This document shows positions 8,571-63,779 of a stretch of DNA of 64,000 nt, one piece after another. Position 1 is the stretch's first letter. Each line of letters starts with the position of its first letter. Made by a program: the position numbers and the translations under genes. The DNA comes from a virus, in IMG/VR virus record IMGVR_UViG_3300042569_002815, positions 1 to 64,000 of that record; one strand, 5' to 3'. The notes under the pieces are model-generated. The model was not told where the DNA came from. It ran no database searches and worked only from the letters and a program-made list of their open reading frames with translations.

Positions 8571-10088
8571 TTATGCTAATTTAGCAAGAGAACCAGATGC
8601 CAATGAGAATTGAACATACTGAGTTCCAGGGTGCCATCCAGCTTCAACCAAAGCATATCTTGACTTCATACCGATTTTCGGAGAGAAAGTACCCTCAGAA
8701 ATAGTTTGAAGAGATTCTGCCATGATGTAAGGCATGAATTTAAGACCTGGCTCTTCGTCAGCACCTTTACGACCAATTAATACAGTCGCATCGTCAAACT
8801 TCAAGTTAGGATCAACGTATACGTTAAGACCGTAAACTTTACCAGCAGGGTACAATGTACCAGCAGCAGAACCTAAATCGTTGTTGAAAGGAGCAATTGA
8901 GTAACCAGCAGCATCAGCCATAGCAGATGCAACTTTAGCACCAACTACTGCGAAAGTACCAGCACCAAAACGTGCTCTGTGGTAGATCAAGTTAGCAGAT
9001 TCTAACATCTTGCTAGCAAGTCTTCTTTGAGCAGTTGTTACGTTTTCGAAACCACCAGTATAAGTAGCAGCAGATAAGTCTAATGTAGCAGAATAACCTT
9101 CAGCTGTTGCAGCTGCAGCAGCGTGAGTTGTTGCTAAATTCTTAACTTTAGAAACGATTTCTTTGTTGATTGTTTGAGCAAGCTCGTTAACAGCAACATT
9201 CTCTAACATAGAGATTGCGTCGAAATTCCAAACTCTGTTAAGATCTTGGATTTGCTCAACTGTTGCAGAGATAGAAACTTGAGAAGTTTTAGCCTCAACA
9301 AACTTAGTGAACATTTTAAGACCCATTTGACGGAATTTAGAAGTTTCACCAGCACCTCTATTCATAGATTGAGTGTACTCTTGACCATCTAAGAAAGGAC
9401 CATACCAAGCAGAAGCTTCAGCTGTACCTGCAGGAGCTGCAGTTGAAGTGAAACCAGAGATATGATTTTCTAAAGCAGATACTAATTCTACTTCAGCTTC
9501 TGAAACAGCAATACCTGCAGCAACCGCTTGAGCAGCAACTGAAGTAGAAGCGTCTGTACCAGAAATAACTTTGTAGATGTATTTTGCATCTAGACGAGAT
9601 ACACCAACATAAGCAAACTCTCTGTCACCAGTGTTATCTGGAGTTGTATCAAGAGTTGCAGTTTTGATCAAATATGGTTCAAACTCACCAGTTACGTTAC
9701 CACCTTGGTAAACATAATCTAAGTAAGGAAGGAAACCAACTGGAGAGTCCATAGGAACTACACCAACTAGGTCAAAACCAATAGTTTTTGCTGCTACTTG
9801 AATAGCAACTGGCAATAAACTTGGGAATTTATCACCTGAACCATTTGCACCAGTTGTTGGAGCTAATGGGTTACCGATTCCACTGATAGAACCTGGTTGT
9901 TGATAGAATAAACCTGGAGCAACAGCTGATTCGTTGATTGCACCTGCGTTTTCGAACATTGCGTGATAGTGGCAATAATCTACTAACCAAGGACGTGAAT
10001 CTGCGTTTACACCATAGCTTTCTAAAACTGGAGCCCAAGTTGACTTAACAGAGGCATCGTTTAGTCTTTTAAATACTTTTGTAGACAT
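8571..10088 (-). CDS. 23: Major capsid protein (gp23-like)
   Basis: 505 residues, close to T4 gp23 (521). The region around residues 85-125 (D-L-V-G-V-V-P-M-D-S-P-V-G) matches the gp23 motif D-I-C-G-V-Q-P-M-N-S-P-T-G. The first ~53 residues look like the cleaved gp23 propeptide and end in A-I-N-E before SAVAPG, a plausible prohead-protease site. The gene is Ala/Gly rich, codon-regular, followed by a strong terminator and preceded by the fused protease/scaffold, the order expected of a T4-type head operon. No Shine-Dalgarno: the ATG follows an A-rich leader. Confidence 0.92.
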   Translation of the reverse strand: MSTKVFKRLNDASVKSTWAPVLESYGVNADSRPWLVDYCHYHAMFENAGAINESAVAPGLFYQQPGSISGIGNPLAPTTGANGSGDKFPSLLPVAIQVAAKTIGFDLVGVVPMDSPVGFLPYLDYVYQGGNVTGEFEPYLIKTATLDTTPDNTGDREFAYVGVSRLDAKYIYKVISGTDASTSVAAQAVAAGIAVSEAEVELVSALENHISGFTSTAAPAGTAEASAWYGPFLDGQEYTQSMNRGAGETSKFRQMGLKMFTKFVEAKTSQVSISATVEQIQDLNRVWNFDAISMLENVAVNELAQTINKEIVSKVKNLATTHAAAAATAEGYSATLDLSAATYTGGFENVTTAQRRLASKMLESANLIYHRARFGAGTFAVVGAKVASAMADAAGYSIAPFNNDLGSAAGTLYPAGKVYGLNVYVDPNLKFDDATVLIGRKGADEEPGLKFMPYIMAESLQTISEGTFSPKIGMKSRYALVEAGWHPGTQYVQFSLASGSLAKLA

Positions 10089-10105: not shown

Positions 10106-12139
10106 TTAGTTGTTTGCTCTTCTTTTTAGAGCGTCGAGGTATGCATTACCATAACCTCTTTGATGTTCCGCAACTTTCTCAATCGAGATAAAACCTTCTC
10201 TACCTTGGCTTTCGTTGATGTGTTGCGCTGTTTTATTTTGTTTTTCGAAATAAATTCTTTCATTAACTCCTCTTAAATCTCTGCTCTCCCAGAAGTTTTT
10301 AACTTGGTAAGGAGTGTTAAGAACAGTTAAAGAAGCTTGAGCTTCTAAACGGCTCTTTTCTGCAGGAGTCATGCTTTCAAAAACTTCTTTGAATTTAGCA
10401 GGCATGAACTTAATTAAGTTTGGAGTATTTTCTTGTTGTTTGTTAAGAACTGATTCAATGATTTGGATAACGTCTTCTTCTTTGAAGTAAACTGCACCTG
10501 AAAGAGCTTCAATAATAGCAGTTTTTTGAGTTTGATCTAAATTAAAGAATCTTGATTTATTATCTTCGTTAAGAAGTTTTAAGAATGGATATCTGCTTTC
10601 TAATACAGATTTAGCAGAGTTATCTTTGATATGCTTAACAATTGAGTTAACTGAACTTACAATATCAGAAACATTAGAACCTTCAGAAACTTGATAGTTT
10701 ACAGACTCATCTAATTTTTCGATTTGGCTAAATGCAGAGGCAGTTTTAGTAGAAAGACCTACTTTACCTTCATTTAATTCAGTTGCAATATACTCAGAAT
10801 ATTTAATTCCTCTTTCAAGGTTTTCAGCAAGATAGTTAGCGTAACCAATAGAGTGCTTTAAGTTTTCAGCAACGTATTCAGTGTATCTGATACCTTGTTC
10901 TGATTTTTCAGCAACATACTCAGAATATTGAATTCCTTTATCAAGGTTTTCTGCTAAGTATTCTGTGTATTTAATATTTTTGTTTACGTTTTCAGCAATA
11001 TGCTCAGAGTAATCAATTGCATTATTTAGGTTTTCTCCAACGTATTCAGCATAACCGATACCTTGTTCAACTTTTTCTGCAAGATAATCAGAATAATCAA
11101 TTACTTTATTAACTTTCTCAGCAACATGCTCAGAATAATTAATTGATTTGTTCATCATTCCAGAAAGGTAATTGTTATATTCAATTACTTTGCTAAGCTC
11201 GCTTGAAAGATAGTTAACATACTCAACTAATTGTTCATTAGTTGCAGGTGTTTGTTCTTCATCTTGTTCAGCATTTGGATCTTCAACCACTGGAGCATCA
11301 GCAGGTTGGTCGTCTTCGGTAACTGCGAAGTTATCAACCATTTTATCTACACTTTCTTTAAGTGCGTCAAACTTGCCTTTAACAAGTTCAGAGTATTGGT
11401 TGAACGCTTCTTTCGTTACAAACTCATTAGTCATGTGTTTGTTATTATTTTCCATAGTTTGTACTATCTCTTCATTATTTATCTTATAAACTTTGATTGA
11501 TTCCTCGAGGTTTAAGCTTTCAGAAATATCAACCAATTTATTTACAATTGACGTAGATTTAATATTTTCCAAAGATTCGAAAAGCATAGAGTAATTGCTT
11601 TGGAAGCTCTCGTTAACAGATCTTCTAAGAACAGCTTCACTGAAACCAGGTTCAGCTACTAGATCGTATGTGAATATTCTTTGGATTTTTACTTTACCTT
11701 CATTCATTACCTGACCAGCGGCTCTTGAAGAAGTTGAAATTGTACAGCCTGACTCAACTAGAGTTTTTGCAATCTGGCCAGCGGGAGTGTTAAGCAGACG
11801 TACTTTAATTTTTACGTTATTAGAATTTTGATCGTACCATAATTTCTCAACTACGTGAGAAACGTTTTTAAGTGAAACGTCAAAATTTTGAGGGTGGTCT
11901 AGCTCACCAAATAATTGACCTCTTTCGATTTTCTCGTTTAGGTATTCTAGGTGAGGAAGATACTCTGCTTTTTCGTAGATACGGTTGTTGTTATTCTTTG
12001 TGTCAAATACTGCACAAACACCTTCCATAACGATATCACCATTATCTAGTTTTGCTGAGTTTAAACCTTCATTTACTCTTTCTATAATGAAGAGCATATC
12101 TGAGGTTTTTGTAATTTCGTTTACGCCTGTAAGGACCAC
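10106..12139 (-). CDS. 21: Prohead core protease (gp21-like) fused to a scaffold domain
   Basis: 677 residues. The first ~175 residues are a peptidase S77-type protease with the motifs N-N-N-R-I-Y, G-E-L-D-H-P and S-S-R-A-A-G, the last carrying the likely catalytic Ser. T4 gp21 has only 212 residues and the core protein gp22 is separate. Here a long helical scaffold follows, with 11 copies of a 14-residue repeat at 307-458 and a final helical domain. V-N-E sequences near residues 21-24 and 175-177 could be self-processing sites. A TATAAATAA late promoter lies 19 nt before the ATG at 12139; an internal ATG at 12097 is the alternative start. Confidence 0.85.
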   Translation of the reverse strand: MVLTGVNEITKTSDMLFIIERVNEGLNSAKLDNGDIVMEGVCAVFDTKNNNNRIYEKAEYLPHLEYLNEKIERGQLFGELDHPQNFDVSLKNVSHVVEKLWYDQNSNNVKIKVRLLNTPAGQIAKTLVESGCTISTSSRAAGQVMNEGKVKIQRIFTYDLVAEPGFSEAVLRRSVNESFQSNYSMLFESLENIKSTSIVNKLVDISESLNLEESIKVYKINNEEIVQTMENNNKHMTNEFVTKEAFNQYSELVKGKFDALKESVDKMVDNFAVTEDDQPADAPVVEDPNAEQDEEQTPATNEQLVEYVNYLSSELSKVIEYNNYLSGMMNKSINYSEHVAEKVNKVIDYSDYLAEKVEQGIGYAEYVGENLNNAIDYSEHIAENVNKNIKYTEYLAENLDKGIQYSEYVAEKSEQGIRYTEYVAENLKHSIGYANYLAENLERGIKYSEYIATELNEGKVGLSTKTASAFSQIEKLDESVNYQVSEGSNVSDIVSSVNSIVKHIKDNSAKSVLESRYPFLKLLNEDNKSRFFNLDQTQKTAIIEALSGAVYFKEEDVIQIIESVLNKQQENTPNLIKFMPAKFKEVFESMTPAEKSRLEAQASLTVLNTPYQVKNFWESRDLRGVNERIYFEKQNKTAQHINESQGREGFISIEKVAEHQRGYGNAYLDALKRRANN
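10766..11221 (-). repeat. Eleven tandem 14-residue (42-bp) scaffold repeats
   Basis: Period 14 residues (two heptads), consensus Y-[ST]-E-[YH]-[VIL]-A-E-[NK]-[VL]-x-x-x-I-x. Aromatic Tyr/His positions recur every unit and divergence between units is moderate. The pattern predicts a continuous coiled-coil rod in the scaffolding part of the fusion. Confidence 0.9.
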
Positions 12140-22332: not shown

Positions 22333-23955
22333 TTAGTTTTTTCCTAAATTTTTATAAAAGCTCTTAAAGTCCATAATATTCTTATTAGACTTTTTAGTTT
22401 TTCTTGGTTGGAAATTATCACCAGAACCAACGTTAGTTTGAGTAGGTGCAACCGGGTTACCTGATCCGCTTATTGAGGCAGGCGTTTGAAATGCTACACC
22501 AGGGGCAGTTGCGTCTTCTTTAACTGTGCCAGATCCAACTTTAGTTGCTCCTTTGATTTTACTTTGTGGTGCATCTAGTCCACTTTCTGAACTAGTAAAA
22601 AGAAATCTAGTCCACTTTTCTGCTTTAAGTTGAGCTTCCTTTCCTCCTAATTGCTTAGCAGTTCTGGAAATAGTTCTACCTACAACCGGTTTAGTTGCTC
22701 TTCTGGCTCTAGCAAAAACTTCTCCTAATACCTTTTGTTCGTATCCATCAACTTCATCACTAAATTTAAGAAAACCCGAACCAATAAGATCGCCAATCTT
22801 TAGTAGATAATTAATTCTACTTGAATCTAGCATCTGTTTAGATGTAATAGGAATTATTTGCTTTTCATATAGAGGAAGTGCAATCTCTGGAGAATATGAA
22901 ACTCCTTTATAGCGCTTTAGATCTAGGTCAGTTTTATACTTACCTAGTCTTGCTCTAGCTTCCATATATGCTTCAACTGCAAGGGCCATATAGGTAGATT
23001 TAGCTTCTCTAGAAAGAGCCGTTTGATCATCAGTACCTCTCCTAGGATCAGTCATAATCTCGGTTCTAACTTTAACAAACTTTGATTCAAGAGTATTTAT
23101 GTCTGGCCAAGTTCTAAGTTCTTCAATCGCCAATCTAATAAGAACATCACGTTTAGTAAACTTTTCAGCTCTACCTCCAGTTTTCTTGTTAAGTTCATCT
23201 GAAAGTTCTTTAATCTTTCTCTTAAGCTCTTCTATCTTTTCTTGACTTTCATCGTATTTAATAGCTTGATCTTCTTCAAACTCTGGACTAACTATTTCAA
23301 TGAAATCAATATCTTCAATGTCTGGTTCAACTCGGTTTTTCTTTTTAGAAAAACCATCTAATATTTCTGCGATTTGAACGGCTTGTCTAACATCGTCCTT
23401 AATTGCTTCATCATCAGTTGAATCTTTTCCAAAATTAGATTCAACGTATTTCATTAAAGTTTCAGCTTGAGTTGCCTTTTCTTCACCAAGATCAGATGCT
23501 GCAATTTTTAGTTTAGATAAAAGATCATTTACCTCCTTTGTCCATTTGGACTCTTCTATTGCGTGATATGCATCCCAGATAGTTTTTAATCTTTGCTCAT
23601 ATACATTGATTCTTGCTTGCTGAGTAGTTGTATCTTGACCGTTTTTAATTAGATCTTCCAATTCAGAAATTTCTAATTTTAAGACTTGTGAAACATAATC
23701 AATATACTTATCTAAAATTTTGATCCATTGGGTTTGCAAGAATACTTGACTAAGTTGTTCTAAGATAACCGGATCAGTTTTAGATTTATTAATAATATCC
23801 TTTTCTATCAACATAGATAGAAATGCATCTAATTTTGCAAGCATATCTGCATCATTTTCGATGCTAATTATATCATTGGCTTCATTTCCAATAATAATAA
23901 GGTCAGCCTCCAATAGAAGATGTTCTAGAATATTTATGTGTTTAAATTTAAGCAT
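22333..23955 (-). CDS. Large helical head-associated protein with capsid-like C-terminal segment
   Basis: 540 residues, not recognised as a family. The N-terminus is helical with L-L-L-E-A; the long central part is coiled coil and charged helix (residues ~60-280). At about residues 470-515 it carries a segment matching the start of mature capsid protein: A-P-G-x-x-x-Q-x-P-x-S-I-S-G-x-G-N-P-x-A-P-T and later G-S-G-D-x-F. It is preceded by V-K-E, a plausible protease site equivalent to I-N-E in the capsid protein. The very C-terminus, D-F-K-S-F-Y, resembles the targeting peptide. Likely a head-internal or capsid-binding protein. Confidence 0.7.
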   Translation of the reverse strand: MLKFKHINILEHLLLEADLIIIGNEANDIISIENDADMLAKLDAFLSMLIEKDIINKSKTDPVILEQLSQVFLQTQWIKILDKYIDYVSQVLKLEISELEDLIKNGQDTTTQQARINVYEQRLKTIWDAYHAIEESKWTKEVNDLLSKLKIAASDLGEEKATQAETLMKYVESNFGKDSTDDEAIKDDVRQAVQIAEILDGFSKKKNRVEPDIEDIDFIEIVSPEFEEDQAIKYDESQEKIEELKRKIKELSDELNKKTGGRAEKFTKRDVLIRLAIEELRTWPDINTLESKFVKVRTEIMTDPRRGTDDQTALSREAKSTYMALAVEAYMEARARLGKYKTDLDLKRYKGVSYSPEIALPLYEKQIIPITSKQMLDSSRINYLLKIGDLIGSGFLKFSDEVDGYEQKVLGEVFARARRATKPVVGRTISRTAKQLGGKEAQLKAEKWTRFLFTSSESGLDAPQSKIKGATKVGSGTVKEDATAPGVAFQTPASISGSGNPVAPTQTNVGSGDNFQPRKTKKSNKNIMDFKSFYKNLGKN

Positions 23956-24374
23956 TAGTCTAGGGTTAATCTGTAAGCTAATTTATTTTTAAGAGATAAA
24001 AACTCATCTCTTAAGTTATACAATTCAGTATTTGATTCTTGTTCGAATATTTCACAAAAATCTTGGCAAAATACCTTTTCGATATTTTGAATAAAGATTG
24101 GCATAGCTGACTCATAATCCATTACAAGAATAGCACTACCTCCAACTTTAAATCTGCCGTATTTTCCAATAACTTGCTCAGCAATTTCATCAACTAAACC
24201 TAGGAAATCATCATAAAATGCACCAAATGCATTATGTTGAGCTTCGTTAGTTGTTTGCCAATGTAAAATATGAGCTTGGTCTCTAATTTGTAGTAGACTT
24301 AACATGAACGTAGATACATCCATGCCCTCGATTTGAGGTTCGTCTAGTCCGCTTTGTAATTCAAATGGAATCAT
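23955..24374 (-). CDS. Dps/ferritin-like four-helix protein
   Basis: 139 residues from the ATG at 24374, which overlaps the TGA of the small upstream gene (ATGA). A longer TTG start at 24398 is unlikely. The stretch A-H-I-L-H-W-Q-T, then H-N-A-F-G-A-F-Y-D-D-F and V-D-E-I-A-E-Q-V-I-G-K-Y-G has the H/W, H and D-E-I-A-E spacing of Dps/ferritin helices A and B. Ferroxidase activity is not proved; the second half is diverged with two Cys. It overlaps the 540-residue gene by 1 nt. Confidence 0.6.
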   Translation of the reverse strand: MIPFELQSGLDEPQIEGMDVSTFMLSLLQIRDQAHILHWQTTNEAQHNAFGAFYDDFLGLVDEIAEQVIGKYGRFKVGGSAILVMDYESAMPIFIQNIEKVFCQDFCEIFEQESNTELYNLRDEFLSLKNKLAYRLTLD

Positions 24375-24550
24375 TTCTTTGTAGTTTGTTTTTTCCAATC
24401 GGCGAACGGTTTAATCCAAAATGTTCTATTTGTTTCCTTCTTTAATAGATCCATAATTGGATTTTCTCCACTTGGATGTTGCATAACCGCATTTTCCAAT
24501 CTGGTCTTACCCTGGAGATAATCTTTATAGTTTTTCTGAGAAGAATTCAC
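24371..24550 (-). CDS. Small late protein, 59 residues, GTG start
   Basis: A short gene in what otherwise looks like a 190-nt gap. It reads M-N-S-S-Q-K-N-Y-K-D-Y-L-Q-G-K to a basic W-K-K-Q-T-T-K-K end. Its GTG at 24550 lies 20 nt after a GAATAAATA late promoter, and its TGA overlaps the next ATG. Both signals support it. Basic and helical; function unknown. The segment I-K-P-F-A-D-W near the C-terminus resembles the targeting peptide core I-K-P-F-x-x-[FY]. Confidence 0.65.
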   Translation of the reverse strand: MNSSQKNYKDYLQGKTRLENAVMQHPSGENPIMDLLKKETNRTFWIKPFADWKKQTTKK

Positions 24551-24592: not shown

Positions 24593-27487
24593 TTATTCTT
24601 GAGGAGCTGGTAAGAAAGAATCCATGTTAATATCGATTCCTAATAGAGAGTCTGAAGAAGTAGATTTAGTTCTAATATTATTAGCCTGCTCAACTTTAAA
24701 GTATTTAAGCTGATCGTCAGTTATCTTTCCATTGATTAAAACATAATCTCCAGTATGCTTACTTACTGCCATAAAGTAGGTTCCATCTTGTAAGTATCTG
24801 TCAAATTCAATTTTCAAGACTCCATTTAGATAGGCCTGGTTTGTAAATGTTCCGTCTTCAGCAATTGCATTATTAAAGGTTGAAACTAATTCATCTTTAT
24901 AGTTTTTATAAATTAGGTTAAATCCTGATGCTAAGATTTCAACAACTTCTGCTTTATTTGATGCCTGAACTGCTGCTGTAATTCCTTGGCTAAAATATTC
25001 CTTTCTTGGATTAGCTGCAGCGCTTGGTGCAAATGATGTAGAATTTTCAAGATATTCTGGAACTTCTTGTCCAGCTTCTGTAAATATGTCAGATAAACCT
25101 TTTCTAATATAGTTTCCAGCATCAGCACCCATACCAGTTCCGCTCTGTCCAGTTAATCTAAAATTATCTCCACTTGATTTAATTTCAATTGAATCACCTC
25201 CAACTTTAATATCTCCTTTAGTTTTATTATCCGCATTTACTGCATCTTTAACTAGGATAGACATTAAGATCTCTCCACGGCCGATATTTACATTTCCAAC
25301 TGATCCAATTAAATTGAATAATTGTTCATATAATTCTGGGCTAAGTCCGGTAGTATTAAATAGGGTTTTTAAATTTCCATTTGGGTTTGACGTAATATCT
25401 TCAAGCGTGATAGTTGGATTATCTAAATACGCTAATAGGTCATCGTCTTGGTCAAGCTCATCTGCAATTGTAACAATAGTTTTTGCTAAATCTTTATAAC
25501 CCTTAGTTTTGCTAAGAATATCAAATAGATCTTTGGTTACATCATTGTGAGTTCTCTTTAAGAGTTTTTCAATCTTTTTATAGAGAGCTTCATTATATGG
25601 AGCATCAATAATAAGATCAAGTAGAGCAGTTTTCTTTTTATCCAACTCTTCAACTGAAATTGATTCAGTTAATAAAGACTCTTCAATTTCTTTACCCATA
25701 TTATAGAATTCAGAATGAAGTGGTTTACTTGTTAAATTTTTGTATAGAACAAAATCTTGGTCTTTAACTGATTTAATTAAGTCGCTCTCTAATTCAATTT
25801 TAGGAACTTCAACTACTCTAAGCTGAGATGGAATCTTAGCGTATGGAGCCTTTTTATTAATTCGATTTAAATCTATTGATAAATCTGGAATAAAGTCTGG
25901 ATTTGTTGCAATCGCCTTAATTGAATAACCTGGACCAACTGACTTTATTAGTTCATCGATTCCAATTGAATCGACACTACCTCCTCCTACTACATAATCA
26001 GAGGTTTTAGAAAGTCTATCAATTGAACTTTTAACTGTATCAATTGACATTGGAAAAACTGAGCTTCTTTTTCCAGGATGGTATGCTACCATTAAACAAG
26101 GAGAATCATATTTTCCTTTAATATTAGCAGCAATCTTTTCGTGCTCTTTACTTAGGGGTTGAAATTTATCTAGGTAAACAATTACCTCAACTTCTTTTTT
26201 TTTATTTTGGTCTGCTTGAAATTGACTGAAAAAATCAGTTGCATCCTCGTCAGTTCCAAAAAATTGATTAAATGTTGGGAAAAAAGATTCGTTTAATTTA
26301 TCTTCTGCTGCTAATTGAACCTTAGATATTTGAGATTTTAGAGTTTCTTTCATAGTTTTATTAAAGAATGTTGAGCTAACTCTAATGTTCTTCTTTCTAA
26401 ATGTATTTAGGAAAACTCTATAAAGTTCTTTGAGTGTTTTATCAGAATCAATTAAATTAATAACAATATCATCATTAATTAATGATCGGTTAACGTCAAA
26501 TTCAGGTTTATTTAAGAATTCTGGTGTTGTAATTTCAAGTCCACGATATTTGCTACCATGTTCTTGAACAAAATCTTTGAAAATTGCATTTATAATTTGA
26601 ATGTATCTTCTTTCAAATGTTGTACCGTTTGGTTTAATTGCATCAAGATCCGCTTGTGAATAAGTCTCAATGAAATTCATTAAGTCAGCTGTCATGATCC
26701 AAATATAATCATCAGTTTTAGGTGCTTCAACTCTAGCCTGAGCCTTTTCCTTGGCTCTTGCTTGGAACACTGGGTCTACTAATTTTGCTAAAAATACAGA
26801 GTCTTCTCCATTTGGCTCATAAAATCTAAATACAATACCTTCAATATCTTTGTCTGCACTATCTCTTAAAAATGAAGTTTTAAGTTCAGGGTTTAGGACA
26901 TTAATAATGTATTTAGTAAATGACGCAGTTTTAAACTTTCCAACAAGTTCATCAAGAGGAGTATAGACGAAGTCTAAAATCTTTTCCTTTTGATCTTCGG
27001 TTAGCTTTCCTTGAAAAATAATTGGCGGGCGTTCAATATCTAAAATATCTGCCCATTTGTCTAAATCTTCTTTATCTTGAATAGTCTCAGCTTGTTCGCC
27101 TGCCTCATCCAATATATGAATATAACTTAGGATTAGGTGATTCTTAGGAAGTCTATCATATTGGATTGACTGTGCGGTTGGAGAACTAAAATACTCCATT
27201 CCAAAATGATAATTACACGGAAGCTTTTCGATTACATCTGACGATAACTCATCAAAGTGTTTAAGTGCAGGATTATAGTATGAACTTAGGACACGATCTA
27301 CTCCAGTTAATTTAGTATTACGTTTAAAAAATTCAAAAGGTTCTTCAGAATTTCCACAGTTTCTTTGAGCACCAAAGAAGGCACCGTCCATTTTTTCATT
27401 AACGATAACTTCTTTGTTTAATAGAGCTTCTAAGAATTCTTTGCCCTTTTTTTCGTAAATATCTTTTAAGTGGTTTAAACCTGCCAT
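24593..27487 (-). CDS. 964-residue ligase-like / nucleotidyltransferase-like / nuclease-like protein
   Basis: Three enzyme-like modules. Residues ~20-240 form a polynucleotide-ligase-type nucleotidyltransferase: E-K-M-D-G at 31-35 (motif I Lys32), M-E-Y-F at 97-100, E-G-I-V-F-R-F at 216-222 and L-A-K-L at 233-236. Residues ~435-560 resemble an NMN/cytidylyl-transferase: D-K-F-Q-P-L-S-K-E-H matches the G-x-F-x-P-x(4)-H pattern. Residues ~735-790 have G-R-G-E-I-L and K-G-D-I-K-V-G-G-D-S-I-E-I-K, a PD-(D/E)xK-like nuclease core. L-N-E at 398-400 sits between modules 1 and 2 and could be cut by the prohead protease. It lies in the late block, so it may be a virion protein. Confidence 0.7.
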   Translation of the reverse strand: MAGLNHLKDIYEKKGKEFLEALLNKEVIVNEKMDGAFFGAQRNCGNSEEPFEFFKRNTKLTGVDRVLSSYYNPALKHFDELSSDVIEKLPCNYHFGMEYFSSPTAQSIQYDRLPKNHLILSYIHILDEAGEQAETIQDKEDLDKWADILDIERPPIIFQGKLTEDQKEKILDFVYTPLDELVGKFKTASFTKYIINVLNPELKTSFLRDSADKDIEGIVFRFYEPNGEDSVFLAKLVDPVFQARAKEKAQARVEAPKTDDYIWIMTADLMNFIETYSQADLDAIKPNGTTFERRYIQIINAIFKDFVQEHGSKYRGLEITTPEFLNKPEFDVNRSLINDDIVINLIDSDKTLKELYRVFLNTFRKKNIRVSSTFFNKTMKETLKSQISKVQLAAEDKLNESFFPTFNQFFGTDEDATDFFSQFQADQNKKKEVEVIVYLDKFQPLSKEHEKIAANIKGKYDSPCLMVAYHPGKRSSVFPMSIDTVKSSIDRLSKTSDYVVGGGSVDSIGIDELIKSVGPGYSIKAIATNPDFIPDLSIDLNRINKKAPYAKIPSQLRVVEVPKIELESDLIKSVKDQDFVLYKNLTSKPLHSEFYNMGKEIEESLLTESISVEELDKKKTALLDLIIDAPYNEALYKKIEKLLKRTHNDVTKDLFDILSKTKGYKDLAKTIVTIADELDQDDDLLAYLDNPTITLEDITSNPNGNLKTLFNTTGLSPELYEQLFNLIGSVGNVNIGRGEILMSILVKDAVNADNKTKGDIKVGGDSIEIKSSGDNFRLTGQSGTGMGADAGNYIRKGLSDIFTEAGQEVPEYLENSTSFAPSAAANPRKEYFSQGITAAVQASNKAEVVEILASGFNLIYKNYKDELVSTFNNAIAEDGTFTNQAYLNGVLKIEFDRYLQDGTYFMAVSKHTGDYVLINGKITDDQLKYFKVEQANNIRTKSTSSDSLLGIDINMDSFLPAPQE

Positions 27488-27506: not shown

Positions 27507-28007
27507 TTAGTCTAGTGATCCGTATTTACCAGCTGACATGTCTTTTGCAAACTCTTGGCCAGCCTTAGATGAAACTCCAAGGTTAATACCTTTTAGTAAG
27601 CCAGCATCTTCTGGGTTTTCTTCAAAATAGGTAACTAATTGATCCAAGTTAATATTTTGATATGGTTGGATAGTTCCCTCAGGAAGTTTCTTTTCTAATT
27701 CTCTACCAGAAGAATAGTCTTTCCAGTTAAGATTCCAACAGTAAAATTTAACTTCTTGCTTCATTTTTGATGCAAAATAGTGATCAATATCTGCAAGTCT
27801 TGCCTGAACCTCTGAAAGATCTGTTTTGTATGAAGTAGAGTGTCCATAGATATCAGCCGGGGTTCCGATACTTAAGCTATCTGAAGTTAAATCTGTTAAT
27901 TTAACCAATTTGTCCATTAGCTCCTGAAATGGTATGCCTTTAAGATCTTGAGTATCTTCTGCTTCATTTAAGAATTGCTTGAAGTCTCCAATTACGCGAT
28001 TTGTCAT
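27507..28007 (-). CDS. Late protein with capsid-targeting-like N-terminus
   Basis: 166 residues. The leader M-T-N-R-V-I-G-D-F-K-Q-F-L-N-E fits the packaging peptide, with cleavage expected after L-N-E (residue 15). The mature part is a mixed alpha/beta domain with W/Y-rich segments (Y-C-W-N-L-N-W-K-D-Y) and no catalytic motif that I recognise. It precedes the 964-residue gene by 19 nt and has its own late promoter 22 nt upstream. Confidence 0.65.
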   Translation of the reverse strand: MTNRVIGDFKQFLNEAEDTQDLKGIPFQELMDKLVKLTDLTSDSLSIGTPADIYGHSTSYKTDLSEVQARLADIDHYFASKMKQEVKFYCWNLNWKDYSSGRELEKKLPEGTIQPYQNINLDQLVTYFEENPEDAGLLKGINLGVSSKAGQEFAKDMSAGKYGSLD

Positions 28008-28028: not shown

Positions 28029-28037
28029 TTATTTATC
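28029..28037 (-). promoter_or_regulatory. Late promoter of the 166-residue gene
   Basis: Minus-strand GATAAATAA overlapping the stop codon of the kinase gene, 22 nt before the ATG at 28007. It separates late expression downstream from the kinase/HAD pair upstream. Confidence 0.65.
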
Positions 28038-28628
28038 CCGAACTAGTTTTTGGATTAAATCGCAGAACTCATCAACTGATTCTGAATCAAAATTATTTGT
28101 GAATGTATTAAATGAATTACCTAATCGACCTTCTTTAAATGTCCATGGAGCAGATTGAATTAAATTATGCATAATTCTTTTTTCTTCACTTGGTGAAATT
28201 AAGCCATCCCATAGGTCTTTTTGACGAGATTGGTCTTGTTTAAATTGATCGGGTGCATCAATCATAATAGTTTTACAGTCTTGATAGCCAGGACGATTAA
28301 TTAGACCAGCCAGCTCAGATTGAGCTTCATCAAAGGTTATTCGATTCCATAAAGTAGCCCAGGTGGCAGCTGTAATATGAGCTCTGTCAAATACAAAAAT
28401 CTTTTCTGGAAATTGCTTATGTAGATCTAGGATTGTCATAATATTACCCATGCTAAAGTAGTGGATTCCTTTATCTGACTTATCCCAATCTTTAACGATT
28501 GCAGAGTATTCGTTTGCTAGGTAAAATTTATAATAAAATAGGTTTAGATCAGCACCATGTCTTTCAATTAATTGGTTTAGCAAATAGGTTTTGCCTGAAT
28601 GACGTGTGCCTTCAATAAAAATTATCAT
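28029..28628 (-). CDS. P-loop nucleotide/polynucleotide kinase-like protein
   Basis: 199 residues starting M-I-I-F-I-E-G-T-R-H-S-G-K-T-Y, a Walker A at residues 7-14 with an R-H insertion typical of deoxynucleoside or thymidylate-kinase-like enzymes. V-F-D-R-A-H-I at about 84 fits the D-R-x second motif of that superfamily. A lid-like region D-Q-S-R-Q-K is at about 145. It overlaps the HAD phosphatase by 4 nt, so kinase and phosphatase may act as a split PNK-like pair or in nucleotide salvage. Confidence 0.7.
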   Translation of the reverse strand: MIIFIEGTRHSGKTYLLNQLIERHGADLNLFYYKFYLANEYSAIVKDWDKSDKGIHYFSMGNIMTILDLHKQFPEKIFVFDRAHITAATWATLWNRITFDEAQSELAGLINRPGYQDCKTIMIDAPDQFKQDQSRQKDLWDGLISPSEEKRIMHNLIQSAPWTFKEGRLGNSFNTFTNNFDSESVDEFCDLIQKLVRDK

Positions 28629-29155
28629 GAGTATTTAAGTTGTATTCTTTCTCTAGTTAATATACCAATATTTCCATTGATTTGAAGTAGTTCAGTCTTA
28701 TCAACAAACCAATATTCAATCTTTTCAGTGACTTTAGAAAGATATGGATTTTTGACATACTTATCGATTTGAACCAATGAGTCTTCGAATATTCGAATTG
28801 TATCAAAGTTTGGTCCAACCTTATCTAAGTACTCCAATAACATCTGTGGCTTGTCAGTATTTCTTTCACATAGGATAATTTGATCAAATCTTTTACTAAT
28901 ACCAAACTTATCCAATACAGCTTCCATGGCCTTTCTAGTTTTCTCAACTCGGTGACTTAATATAATAGTAGTATGGTCTTCGGATAATTGGTTAAATACT
29001 GATTCAATTAACTGTAATCGATAGAGATTTGTATTCAGGGACTTTGGATTATCAAACCATTCGTATGGCTTTTTAAATTCTGTTCCTGCATGGGTAAATG
29101 GCGGAACTCTAAAGAGGGTTTCATCAAAATCGACTACGTTTAAAACTTGCTTCAT
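28625..29155 (-). CDS. HAD-family phosphatase (RNA-repair-like)
   Basis: The start is taken at the ATG 29155, since the upstream in-frame residues are unstructured and cross a promoter. It begins M-K-Q-V-L-N-V-V-D-F-D-E-T-L-F, the HAD motif I (DxDxT) with the D-E-T-L-F form of so-called Swiss-army-knife RNA-repair HAD domains. Motif II T-I-I-L-S-H-R is at about 75, and the D-x-I-x-I-F-E-D-S acidic motif IV follows. 176 residues. Paired by overlap with the kinase. Confidence 0.72.
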   Translation of the reverse strand: MKQVLNVVDFDETLFRVPPFTHAGTEFKKPYEWFDNPKSLNTNLYRLQLIESVFNQLSEDHTTIILSHRVEKTRKAMEAVLDKFGISKRFDQIILCERNTDKPQMLLEYLDKVGPNFDTIRIFEDSLVQIDKYVKNPYLSKVTEKIEYWFVDKTELLQINGNIGILTRERIQLKYS

Positions 29156-40252: not shown

Positions 40253-40261
40253 TTATTTATC
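40253..40261 (-). promoter_or_regulatory. Late promoter of the 68-residue gene
   Basis: Minus-strand GATAAATAA, 20 nt before the ATG at 40233; it overlaps the stop codon of the upstream HAD gene. Confidence 0.7.
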
Positions 40262-41596
40262 GGAAATATAGTCCGAAAAAGTTTTTATACGGCTTGTTCC
40301 AGAACCCGGATTTGCTCCAAGTTCTTGTCTTCCACCTTTATACATGCCCCATTGTGCAGGTATCTTTAATGTTCCACTGACTCTCTGCGGAGCTCGTTCT
40401 GGCGGCAAATCATCCATATCTGGATTGCTTTTAGTACGGTCTCTGAGTAATTCTGGGGTTAGCAGGTCCTCTTCAATCTTTCCGCCTAATATCATCCAAA
40501 CCTTTTTGGGATCCTTTCCTTCAGGGATCCCCTGTGAAAAACTATTGAAATCTTGAGCTAACCAAAACTCTCTCATTAAAGTTCCAGAAACACCATCCTC
40601 GTCTCCGTCTGAACCAGTATTTCCTCCAAATTCAGGACGAGCTGTTTCAATTCGGTTAATTTTAGAGATACTGCCTCTCCACTTTTCCATGGCAGCCCAT
40701 CTAGGCATGTCTTTATCTGTTGCATAAAGATTAACCACTGTATTTGGAGCATATTGGGTTTTACCAAGCGCCTCAACAAATTCATATCCACTTCTAACTG
40801 GGGTAACATCCGCTAGGTGGAGTTCAACGTTATCAAAATCTTCTAGATAATATTCTAAAACTTCCATTGCAGTCTTACCGCTAATACCAGCCATTTCAGT
40901 TTTTGAAATAAAAACATGAACCTCATCGTTTTCCTCTGCAATTTTTGCAATTGCTTCATAGTGACCAGCATGAGGTGGCTTAAATTTACCACTAAAGATT
41001 CCAACTGTTCTGATATCTAATTTTGGAACTTGAGTACGACCAATTTTTCTAGTCTTCATTGTAATTTCTTCAAACTCATCCTCTAGACTCTTTGCAAGTT
41101 CTAGGTTTTTACGATCATCGTCATAAAAAGTAAAGTGTCTAAACCCTTTAGTGATTAGTTTTCGGAAGGCTTCTTTTTTCTTTTCTGCAATAGTTCCTTC
41201 AAATCCAAATTCTGGATCGCTAACCGCATAGATTAATTTTGGGTGAATATCAATCCCATGGGACAATAGAAATTCTCTGACTAGTTTCTTATTATCTCTA
41301 GCTGTAATAATGCCGACAGCAGTCCCAGATTCATAGGCAGAACGTAATATATTAAGTACCCATTCTACTAATCTTCCAGCCTTTAAAATATTAGCATCAT
41401 TAAATTGATTATAGTCTACTTCGTGATGTGGTTCCTTTTCATATTCATTAAACTCCTGTGGAGTAAGATCAAAGGTTTCACCAGTAAGTGCATCCTTAAC
41501 TAGGATCTTTGCATTAGTGACAACTAGTGTGTCATCTAAATCAAATATGATAATTGAGTTATCTCTAGAAAATGCCATTTCGTTTACTCTTTGCAC
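40253..41596 (-). CDS. HAD phosphatase fused to an NMN/cytidylyltransferase-like domain
   Basis: 447 residues. Domain 1 (to ~185) is HAD-like: I-I-I-F-D-L-D-D-T-L at ~13-22, G-I-I-T-A-R-D-N-K-K motif II and F-Y-D-D-D motif IV. Domain 2 (~195-390) has S-G-K-F-K-P-P-H-A-G-H at ~200, the H-x-G-H adenylyl/cytidylyl-transferase motif. It ends R-I-K-T-F-S-D-Y-I-S-D-K, a targeting-like C-terminal peptide. The GTG at 41596 is 18 nt after a late promoter; an ATG at 41578 is possible. A role in NAD or nucleic-acid end metabolism is inferred. Confidence 0.75.
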   Translation of the reverse strand: MQRVNEMAFSRDNSIIIFDLDDTLVVTNAKILVKDALTGETFDLTPQEFNEYEKEPHHEVDYNQFNDANILKAGRLVEWVLNILRSAYESGTAVGIITARDNKKLVREFLLSHGIDIHPKLIYAVSDPEFGFEGTIAEKKKEAFRKLITKGFRHFTFYDDDRKNLELAKSLEDEFEEITMKTRKIGRTQVPKLDIRTVGIFSGKFKPPHAGHYEAIAKIAEENDEVHVFISKTEMAGISGKTAMEVLEYYLEDFDNVELHLADVTPVRSGYEFVEALGKTQYAPNTVVNLYATDKDMPRWAAMEKWRGSISKINRIETARPEFGGNTGSDGDEDGVSGTLMREFWLAQDFNSFSQGIPEGKDPKKVWMILGGKIEEDLLTPELLRDRTKSNPDMDDLPPERAPQRVSGTLKIPAQWGMYKGGRQELGANPGSGTSRIKTFSDYISDK

Positions 41597-62651: not shown

Positions 62652-63779
62652 TTAATGGCTATCACCAACTTCCCAGTTTTCTGCATAGATCAAGTAATCT
62701 GGATTAATTACTTTTGCAACTTTGCTTCTATCTCCAGTATGATGTTTTACAACAACTCCTTCGTGAGGCACTTTAGTTCCAAAGATAAAATTATCAAAGA
62801 CATACATATCTTCAATTTCTTTATTCCAATCTCCTACATAAAGTACATCAACATAAGGTAAGTCCATTTCAATTCCAACAAAATTAAAGGCCTCATCAGT
62901 TGAACAGTATTTGCCATTGATTTCCAAGTCAAATCCTGCAAATTCAATTTCCTTTAGACCATAGTCATAATTCTTTTGAATACCTGCTCCATAGATTTCT
63001 CCATATAGAACAACGCCAATTCCAATACCATCTGGGAATCTTTCGGGATCCTTGGCAAACTTCCATAAAACCTGTTTAAGATTATACTTTGCAGCAATAT
63101 CATACCAGACATTAGTGTCGTAGAAGCCCTGAGAGTCTGATCCTTTTTCTACATTATGTGAACCTACTACAAATTCGTAATCGACCCATTTTGCACCAAA
63201 GAATTTCTTTACCTTATCGAATAGAGATAATTTGTTTTTCTTTACAATACCATATCGAGCATTGGTTCCATGGATCTTACGTGAAATTTCAACCCAATCA
63301 TCTTCAGTAAAAATTCCTGGTACGTTCTTTGCATTTGGAAATTTGTAGTAAATATGAAAGTTTGGATTTTCTGAATATCTGATCTTTTTACCAGAACTCA
63401 ATTGAACCTGCTTAACTGGTGGTTCGTATTTCCAAATATTCATTGCATACATCATGTCTTTACCTTCATAGTAATTTTCCATGAATGGAACATGTTTAAT
63501 TGGAATGATTAGACACTCTGAATATACTCCACGTAATTTTACAGTACGGACTCTACCGCCTTTACGTAAATAGTTTGTAACATTTAAGGTGTCAGACAAT
63601 TCGACTGGAATTACTGCATCGGTTGTTGCAACTACTACAAGATCCCCATTAGAGTATTGTCCCTTTTGGACAATTGCTTGCCATCCACTGACTAATGCCA
63701 ATTCAATAGCATCTGCTCCTGGAATAGGTACGATTTCACCAATACTTGTTACAAAGCAAACTGAATTATTATTTTCCAT
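62652..63779 (-). CDS. RNA ligase (Rnl5/DraRnl-like) with N-terminal OB domain
   Basis: 375 residues. N-terminal ~100 residues form the Rnl5 OB module (P-I-P-G-A-D-A-I-E-L-A, V-S-G-W-Q-A-I-V-Q-K-G, G-D-L-V-V-V). Catalytic domain: S-R-K-I-H-G-T-N-A-R with nucleotidyl Lys near 188, L-Y-G-E-I-Y-G near 258, H-E-G-V-V-V-K near 340 and A-K-V-I-N motif V. It seals RNA ends such as tRNA cleaved by host anticodon nucleases. The kinase-like gene lies directly upstream. Confidence 0.85.
   Translation of the reverse strand: MENNNSVCFVTSIGEIVPIPGADAIELALVSGWQAIVQKGQYSNGDLVVVATTDAVIPVELSDTLNVTNYLRKGGRVRTVKLRGVYSECLIIPIKHVPFMENYYEGKDMMYAMNIWKYEPPVKQVQLSSGKKIRYSENPNFHIYYKFPNAKNVPGIFTEDDWVEISRKIHGTNARYGIVKKNKLSLFDKVKKFFGAKWVDYEFVVGSHNVEKGSDSQGFYDTNVWYDIAAKYNLKQVLWKFAKDPERFPDGIGIGVVLYGEIYGAGIQKNYDYGLKEIEFAGFDLEINGKYCSTDEAFNFVGIEMDLPYVDVLYVGDWNKEIEDMYVFDNFIFGTKVPHEGVVVKHHTGDRSKVAKVINPDYLIYAENWEVGDSH

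Follow-up and report, generated by a model that had tools for sequence, protein, structure and literature searches.

An unbroken 964-residue reading frame encodes a multidomain phage protein

The window analyzed here is a stretch of 64,000 nucleotides (positions 1 to 64,000) of the viral IMG/VR record IMGVR_UViG_3300042569_002815, which is 114,161 bases long and carries T4-like head and tail genes for a major capsid protein, a gp21-like protease, a portal, a head-completion protein, and a baseplate hub. A first-pass annotation of the window had picked out a 964-residue open reading frame and given no strand; the frame is real, begins with ATG, and is read from the minus strand; at the same position the plus strand is full of stop codons. 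Its reading frame is unbroken in nearly all IMG/VR contigs at 85-100% identity. In one near-identical contig (L013/L031), a frameshift or stop after residue 344 breaks it. The gene and its parts are:

24593..27487, minus strand: polyprotein gene, 964 aa, ordered ligase, linker, nucleotidyltransferase (NTase), linker, nuclease-like module; same frame in near-identical IMG/VR contigs
26303..27487, minus strand: module 1, residues 1-395, nucleotidyltransferase domain of an RNA ligase (T4 Rnl2 type) followed by a helical C-terminal domain (Pfam, AF2, Foldseek)
26195..26299, minus strand: linker, residues 397-431, predicted disordered (pLDDT <50), with conserved motif [LIV]xE[SNGA]xFP[ST]Fx[EQD]F
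25673..26197, minus strand: module 2, residues 431-605, HIGH-superfamily, NMNAT-like NTase fold, degenerate here (FQPLSKEH) (Foldseek, relatives' profiles)
24596..25639, minus strand: module 3, residues 617-964, nuclease-like, outside known families (C-terminal alignment, AF2)

In order, the protein contains the ligase motifs K32-M-D-G35, E98-Y-F100, E216-G-I-V-F-R-F222, and L233-A-K-L236, followed by L398-N-E400, F442-Q-P-x4-H449, and G758-D759. Every motif listed in the first-pass annotation is present, with one corrected spacing: D759 and E768 are separated by eight residues, giving GD-x8-EIK rather than GD-x9-EIK. The ligase and NTase folds of the first two modules are supported by the comparisons described below, and the nuclease-like character of the third is supported by its conserved residues. 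A search of the whole protein against PDB sequences returned chance matches only, and a DNA-level search found no annotated relative of the gene.

Module 1 has the fold and motifs of T4 RNA ligase 2

The Pfam family RNA_ligase (PF09414) matches residues 25-236 with an E-value of 4.3e-8 and 33.9 bits, against a curated cut-off of 27. An AlphaFold (AF2) model of module 1 has pLDDT values mostly between 75 and 93, and its top solved structures in Foldseek are T4 RNA ligase 2 with and without substrate (2hvr: E 1.4e-7, probability 1.0), with other RNA ligases next. The module shares with the T4 Rnl2 family motifs I (KxDG), III, IV, and V in order and the fold over domain 1, probably also part of the helical C-terminal domain. 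It differs in its low identity (~14%), in the NTase and nuclease-like modules fused to it, and in the loss of the catalytic lysine from some branches of its family. Family model, fold, and conserved motifs thus uphold the ligase module proposed at first pass.

27392..27394, minus strand: codon of Lys32, the predicted adenylylated lysine (KMDG)

In an alignment of 52 relatives, 51 have K32 and all have G35 and K235; at the motif IV position E216, 36 have glutamate and 12 aspartate. Conservation of Lys32 had been named earlier as a check on the ligase assignment, and it mostly holds: in a wider set of 113 different proteins the residue is lysine in 101 and otherwise Q, D, N, V, or R. Losses are confined to some branches, namely L123-L127 (Q), L057, L064, L015/L122, and L016-L019, with N or D in huge phages and single cases of R and V. 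The window protein itself has the motif I lysine K32, the motif IV glutamate E216, and the motif V lysine K235; from these residues, its ligase is probably active, and some other branches have probably retired theirs. The genome encodes two RNA_ligase proteins, the second being of another type and located at 62652-63779 (phrog_968, E 5.7e-57; PHA02142 OB fold plus RNA_ligase).

Module 2 is a degenerate member of the HIGH nucleotidyltransferase superfamily

Foldseek matches module 2 to NadD and CoaD structures with E-values of 1e-4 to 1e-3 (NadD 8aih, 9.4e-5; CoaD 3x1k, 5.4e-4). When relatives were scanned for NTase profiles in 62 rows, 10 of which are module-3-only fragments, a cytidylyltransferase-like profile (CTP_transf_like) was matched in 43 rows and NMN adenylyltransferase models in 31, with a best E-value of 3.6e-9. 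H449 is kept in all 52 aligned relatives. The fold is thus shared with NMN and nicotinate-nucleotide adenylyltransferases (NadM, NadD, and NadR), and other branches of the family also share GRFQPFHxGH and STSATEVR motifs with these enzymes; the window copy, in contrast, lacks both the (H/T)xGH motif, reading S-K-E-H instead, and the C-terminal STxxR motif (no STxxVR). The nucleotidyltransferase module proposed at first pass therefore stands as a fold, but its H-x-G-H-type motif is degenerate in this phage, and from these residues it is doubtful that module 2 is an active enzyme here. A 462-kb huge phage carries the same ligase-NTase fusion with an intact GRFQPFTLGH and without the ligase lysine. 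Elsewhere in the window, at 40253-41596, a HAD domain is fused to a HIGH nucleotidyltransferase with an intact GKFKPPHAGH motif, and this protein matches polynucleotide-kinase and cytidyltransferase PHROGs.

Module 3 carries an invariant set of nuclease-like residues

Full-length modeling was poor in the C-terminal region, partly from misaligned fragment rows, and the structure of module 3 was taken from a separate C-terminal model (pLDDT 78.9, pTM 0.72), which places a helix and strands around one group of residues:

25178..25282, minus strand: G736-x-G-E739 ... D759 ... E768-x-K770, PD-(D/E)XK-like residues, invariant in 16 divergent relatives

G736, G738, E739, D759, E768, and K770 are the only invariant positions among 16 C-terminal relatives with identities down to ~14%, which include stand-alone proteins of Flavobacterium phage immuto and of IMG/VR contigs. 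The stand-alone homologue of immuto phages (QQO92110) adjoins terminase, portal, and prohead protease genes, a setting that counts in favor of the packaging model given below. We found no match to module 3 in the Pfam, PHROG, or PDB sequence families, and profile searches found no nuclease; its best viral matches are uncharacterized phage proteins (E 4e-10), and its best PDB match, the restriction enzyme HinP1I, is not significant (E 0.98). Structure prediction, proposed earlier as a check, thus recovered the ligase fold of module 1 but gave module 3 no significant match to a solved nuclease, so that what stands of the suggested nuclease module is its conserved catalytic-like residues. We describe module 3 as nuclease-like, its residues resembling a PD-(D/E)XK set. 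A second type of C-terminal module (type B; FGE...LVDF...SSK) was considered as a homologue of module 3 and rejected, as profile comparison detected no homology, and no separate module 3 gene was found near other ligase-NTase genes.

The pattern of residue loss across the three modules bears on whether the protein is an enzyme at all. It could be a packaged protein with a structural or core role, derived from retired enzymes, with the folds kept for shape and for nucleotide or DNA binding and with little or no catalysis. K32 has been lost repeatedly and separately (in L123-L127, L057, L064, and the huge phages), the NTase motif is lost in the window clade, and the motif IV glutamate is replaced in many relatives. 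This reading does not account for the window phage, in which every ligase motif tested is intact, as are the nuclease-like residues, or for K32 and K235 being among the best-conserved residues of the family, and we consider it unlikely.

Both module joints carry sites resembling that of the capsid protein

The first-pass annotation had noted an L-N-E site between the first two modules. It is present at L398-N-E400 and is nearly invariant in close relatives: although the linker is predicted to be disordered, E400 and F406 are kept in all of the 52 aligned proteins and F409 in 51. In more distant branches, E400 becomes aspartate or is lost. The linker consensus at this point, [LIV]-x-E-[SNGA], has the look of a T4-type prohead protease (gp21) site. 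An AXE motif in a relative has been called reminiscent of that of gp21 (PMC7411985). The features relevant to possible processing are:

26285..26296, minus strand: LNE↓S, residues 398-401, proposed prohead-protease site 1 (conservation, capsid-site comparison, pattern count)
25661..25672, minus strand: LTE↓S, residues 606-609, proposed protease site 2 (only other pattern match in the protein)
10106..12139, minus strand: gp21-like prohead protease, candidate processor (phrog_207, E 2.2e-35)
8571..10088, minus strand: major capsid protein, with INE↓S at residues 51-54 as proposed reference cleavage site (phrog_138, E 4.2e-47)

Only two matches to the pattern [LIVP][NFYT]E[SANG] lie in the window protein, one at each module joint; across 113 relatives there are 166, against 86.5 expected, and 71 of these fall in the linker. 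As the pattern was defined only after the sites had been seen, and as chance would fairly often give a protein of this length two such sites (P 0.26), the weight is carried by the position and conservation of the sites and not by their number.

In the window phage, the capsid protein reads INE↓SAVAPG just ahead of its conserved mature part. Comparing capsid and linker sites in those related phages with a readable capsid protein, we found agreement in the window phage (INE↓S and LNE↓S) and in L037 and L025 (INE↓A and LNE↓A), similarity in L065 (LFE and VFE) and in L044 and L048 (LFE and VYE), and a mismatch in L056 and L053 (INE against LFE). Overall, these observations fit a model in which both joints would be cut by the gp21-like prohead protease, followed by packaging. 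The earlier proposal of delivery as a polyprotein thereby gains indirect support from the protease-like sites at both joints and the head and tail gene context; delivery itself is inferred.

An N-terminal T4-type capsid-targeting peptide is absent from the polyprotein, whose N-terminus is conserved ligase sequence (MAGLNHLKDIYEKKG...) with no F..F.NE. Starts resembling the T4 capsid-targeting sequence (MK.IK.F..F.NE-like) are seen in the proteins at 27507, 31710, 55070, 58391, and 21979, and the enrichment of FxxFxNE-like starts in the window is not significant (5, against 2.0 in shuffles, with a largest value of 7). A 540-aa protein at 22333-23955 ends in a stretch (VKEDATAPGVAFQTPASISGSGNP...) like the capsid N-terminal arm after the proposed cut site, and an arm-like segment of this kind is also found in other phages.

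Neighboring genes suggest a possible link to RNA repair

Across 61 loci around the gene, the most frequent neighbors are a UvsW-like helicase (59 loci), a P-loop kinase-like protein (42), a HAD protein (40), and a 166-aa protein (27). The last three are encoded just upstream, on the same strand as the polyprotein:

27507..28007, minus strand: 166-aa protein, N-terminal FKQFLNEAE, T4-CTS-like by eye; conserved upstream neighbor
28029..28628, minus strand: P-loop nucleoside/nucleotide-kinase-like protein; conserved neighbor
28625..29155, minus strand: HAD phosphatase related to HAD_SAK_1 (Swiss Army Knife RNA repair); conserved neighbor

The kinase-like protein matches deoxynucleoside kinase (6ybh, E 1.5e-5) and dTMP kinase (6.4e-6), and its family matches AAA_28; by sequence it resembles a nucleoside or dTMP kinase and is not clearly a polynucleotide kinase. 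HAD_SAK_1 (PF10307) is matched by 13 of 20 members of the HAD family (best 1.4e-9), and a jumbo-phage survey placed HAD_SAK_1 in phage RNA repair (PMC7824862). The phage also carries tRNAs, and its structural genes run on the same strand as the polyprotein gene. With 3 copies against 9.8 expected, the T4 late promoter TATAAATA shows no enrichment, so "late" here is a reading of gene context only. Directly downstream, at 23955-24398, lies a small DUF5856 / starvation-inducible-regulator-like protein, conserved in 24 of the 61 loci.

Loci with the kinase and HAD genes have the degraded NTase, and loci with an intact NTase almost always lack both, which leaves a single joint pathway of all these parts unsupported. 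The same pattern bears on NAD handling, in which module 2 (as NMN adenylyltransferase) and the P-loop kinase (as NR kinase) would together act like a split NadR and rebuild NAD+, with the ligase using NAD+ and returning NMN. The NTase is best matched by NMN adenylyltransferase models, the kinase family matches AAA_28 and deoxynucleoside kinases, and phage NAD+ salvage enzymes have been described (PMC9503650). However, the kinase occurs in relatives whose NTase is degraded and is missing where the NTase is intact, and this failure to co-occur lowered our estimate for the split-NadR pair; the ligase, moreover, resembles ATP-type RNA ligases and not LigA. We regard NAD handling as very improbable.

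The main rival to packaging is ordinary intracellular RNA repair: the ligase would seal cut tRNAs in the cytoplasm while the HAD and kinase proteins heal the ends, the other modules would help binding, the conserved linker motif would be a docking site, and nothing would be packaged. Its strengths are the Rnl2-type fold, the HAD_SAK_1 phosphatase and P-loop kinase genes adjoining in about two thirds of loci, the tRNAs and second RNA ligase of this phage, and the well-known occurrence of phage RNA repair (PMC7824862). It leaves unexplained the protease-like sites at both joints and their likeness to the capsid-protein site, the same-strand run of structural genes, and the nuclease-like third module. 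We judge it somewhat unlikely.

A phage family with a variable C-terminal slot

Relatives of module 1 occur in at least 311 IMG/VR stretches and in almost no annotated phage records; the huge-phage version has 257 relative stretches in IMG/VR, a set that overlaps with the 311. A pattern-based and non-exhaustive search of one genome from each of 84,980 bacterial and archaeal species found no relative of the polyprotein. Judged from these sequences, ligase-NTase proteins are a widespread aquatic phage family present in hundreds of viral contigs.

The C-terminal slot varies among 113 different members: 68 consist of the ligase and NTase only; module 3 is present in 10, of which 8 have the window type and 2 the L032 type; 13 carry a different E-D-SxK module, some of them lacking the NTase; and 12 end in another tail. 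L128 has a related-looking GRGE module. Members with module 3 do not form a single supported clade. In one group of relatives (L138-L197), the ligase-like domain reads EKLSG, there is no HIGH NTase, and the C-terminus holds either an E-D-SSKAGxGGTP module or, in the L156 type, a long tail that nothing matches. In the huge phage LR756500, a ligase-like frame at L015:4704-5969 (EKLDGYALSITW...RNKGHLKN), with no Pfam match, lies directly upstream of the ligase-NTase gene.

Proposed model and relation to known systems

The reading we favor, tentatively and at somewhat less than an even chance, is that the gene encodes a three-module polyprotein that is packaged, cut, and injected. The protein would be made late alongside head and tail proteins, would enter or associate with the prohead, and would be cut by the gp21-like protease after E400 and after E608 during head maturation. 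The ligase, NTase-like, and nuclease-like parts would then lie separately inside the capsid and enter the cell with the DNA. There, module 1 would take AMP onto Lys32 and seal broken RNA, for example tRNA cut by host defense nucleases, with the neighboring HAD phosphatase and P-loop kinase possibly supplying it with prepared ends or nucleotides. We infer both this catalysis and its RNA substrate. Module 2, NMN-adenylyltransferase-like and probably active in other branches, may serve as a binding or structural part here, and module 3 would be a metal-dependent PD-(D/E)XK-like nuclease domain.

A further-reaching version, a minority possibility in our estimation, is that the internal protease sites evolve along with the capsid-protein site and that the capsid is filled with a nucleic-acid kit. 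Its ligase, NMNAT-like, and nuclease parts would enter with the DNA and, from the first minute, mend damaged RNA and attack the nucleic acid of the host or of rivals, and the C-terminal nuclease slot would be swapped between unrelated modules.

Elements of the packaging model are already described: injected multi-domain proteins (PMC5512222), Rnl2-HNH fusions together with RNA repair by phages (PMC7824862), T4 proteins that are packaged and cut by gp21 (PMC7411985, PMC3012670), and phage NAD+ enzymes (PMC9503650). Combining at least two unrelated enzyme domains in a single chain, the window protein bears the mark of a polyvalent protein. Like the polyvalent proteins in the parts of Iyer et al. 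2017 considered here (PMC5512222), it combines such domains with variable domain slots, and its processing and delivery with the DNA are predicted, as theirs are. Those parts describe ART, Pol-beta NTase, peptidase, RadC, and similar domains and show no ligase-HIGH NTase-nuclease chain, and the window protein lacks a peptidase domain. Rnl2-HNH fusions (PMC7824862) likewise join an RNA ligase and a nuclease in one phage protein, but their HNH domain is N-terminal, whereas in the window protein the E-D-ExK module is C-terminal and separated from the ligase by an NTase. T4 internal proteins and Alt (PMC7411985, PMC3012670) show the packaging, gp21-type cleavage, and injection proposed here; they carry a short N-terminal targeting peptide, whereas the window protein has none and its proposed cut sites are internal.

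The first-pass annotation had not recognized this arrangement from described systems. Injected polyvalent proteins and Rnl2-HNH fusions are such systems, but in the literature searched, with subscription literature outside it, we found neither a ligase fused to a HIGH nucleotidyltransferase nor the ligase-NTase-nuclease architecture described. The concept is thus known, and the architecture and family appear undescribed. If packaged and cut, the protein would be an example of phage cargo synthesized as a polyprotein whose prohead-protease sites are internal, and a preloaded RNA-repair enzyme could act before phage gene expression, when tRNA-cutting defenses strike. Even without packaging, it represents an aquatic phage family of wide occurrence, in which a ligase-NTase core is found along with a nuclease-like module that is new and described by no library used.

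Two other arrangements were seen in immuto-like phages. Across L101-L121, two nuclease-like modules unrelated to each other, GxGE-D-ExK and ISEVLL...D.I.NG..ISLKT, follow a near-invariant N-terminal peptide of 43 residues (MSVVDKIVNEWAFRCKKGYPDMNNPDDMKILKEIYSEYG) that is perhaps a targeting signal common to both. An immuto phage 907-aa protein annotated as NadR (L021:588-3311) has a Pol-beta-like start, a HIGH NTase (GGFKPPHLAH), and, by eye, two HExxH-type peptidase motifs, giving it the look of a polyvalent-like late protein.
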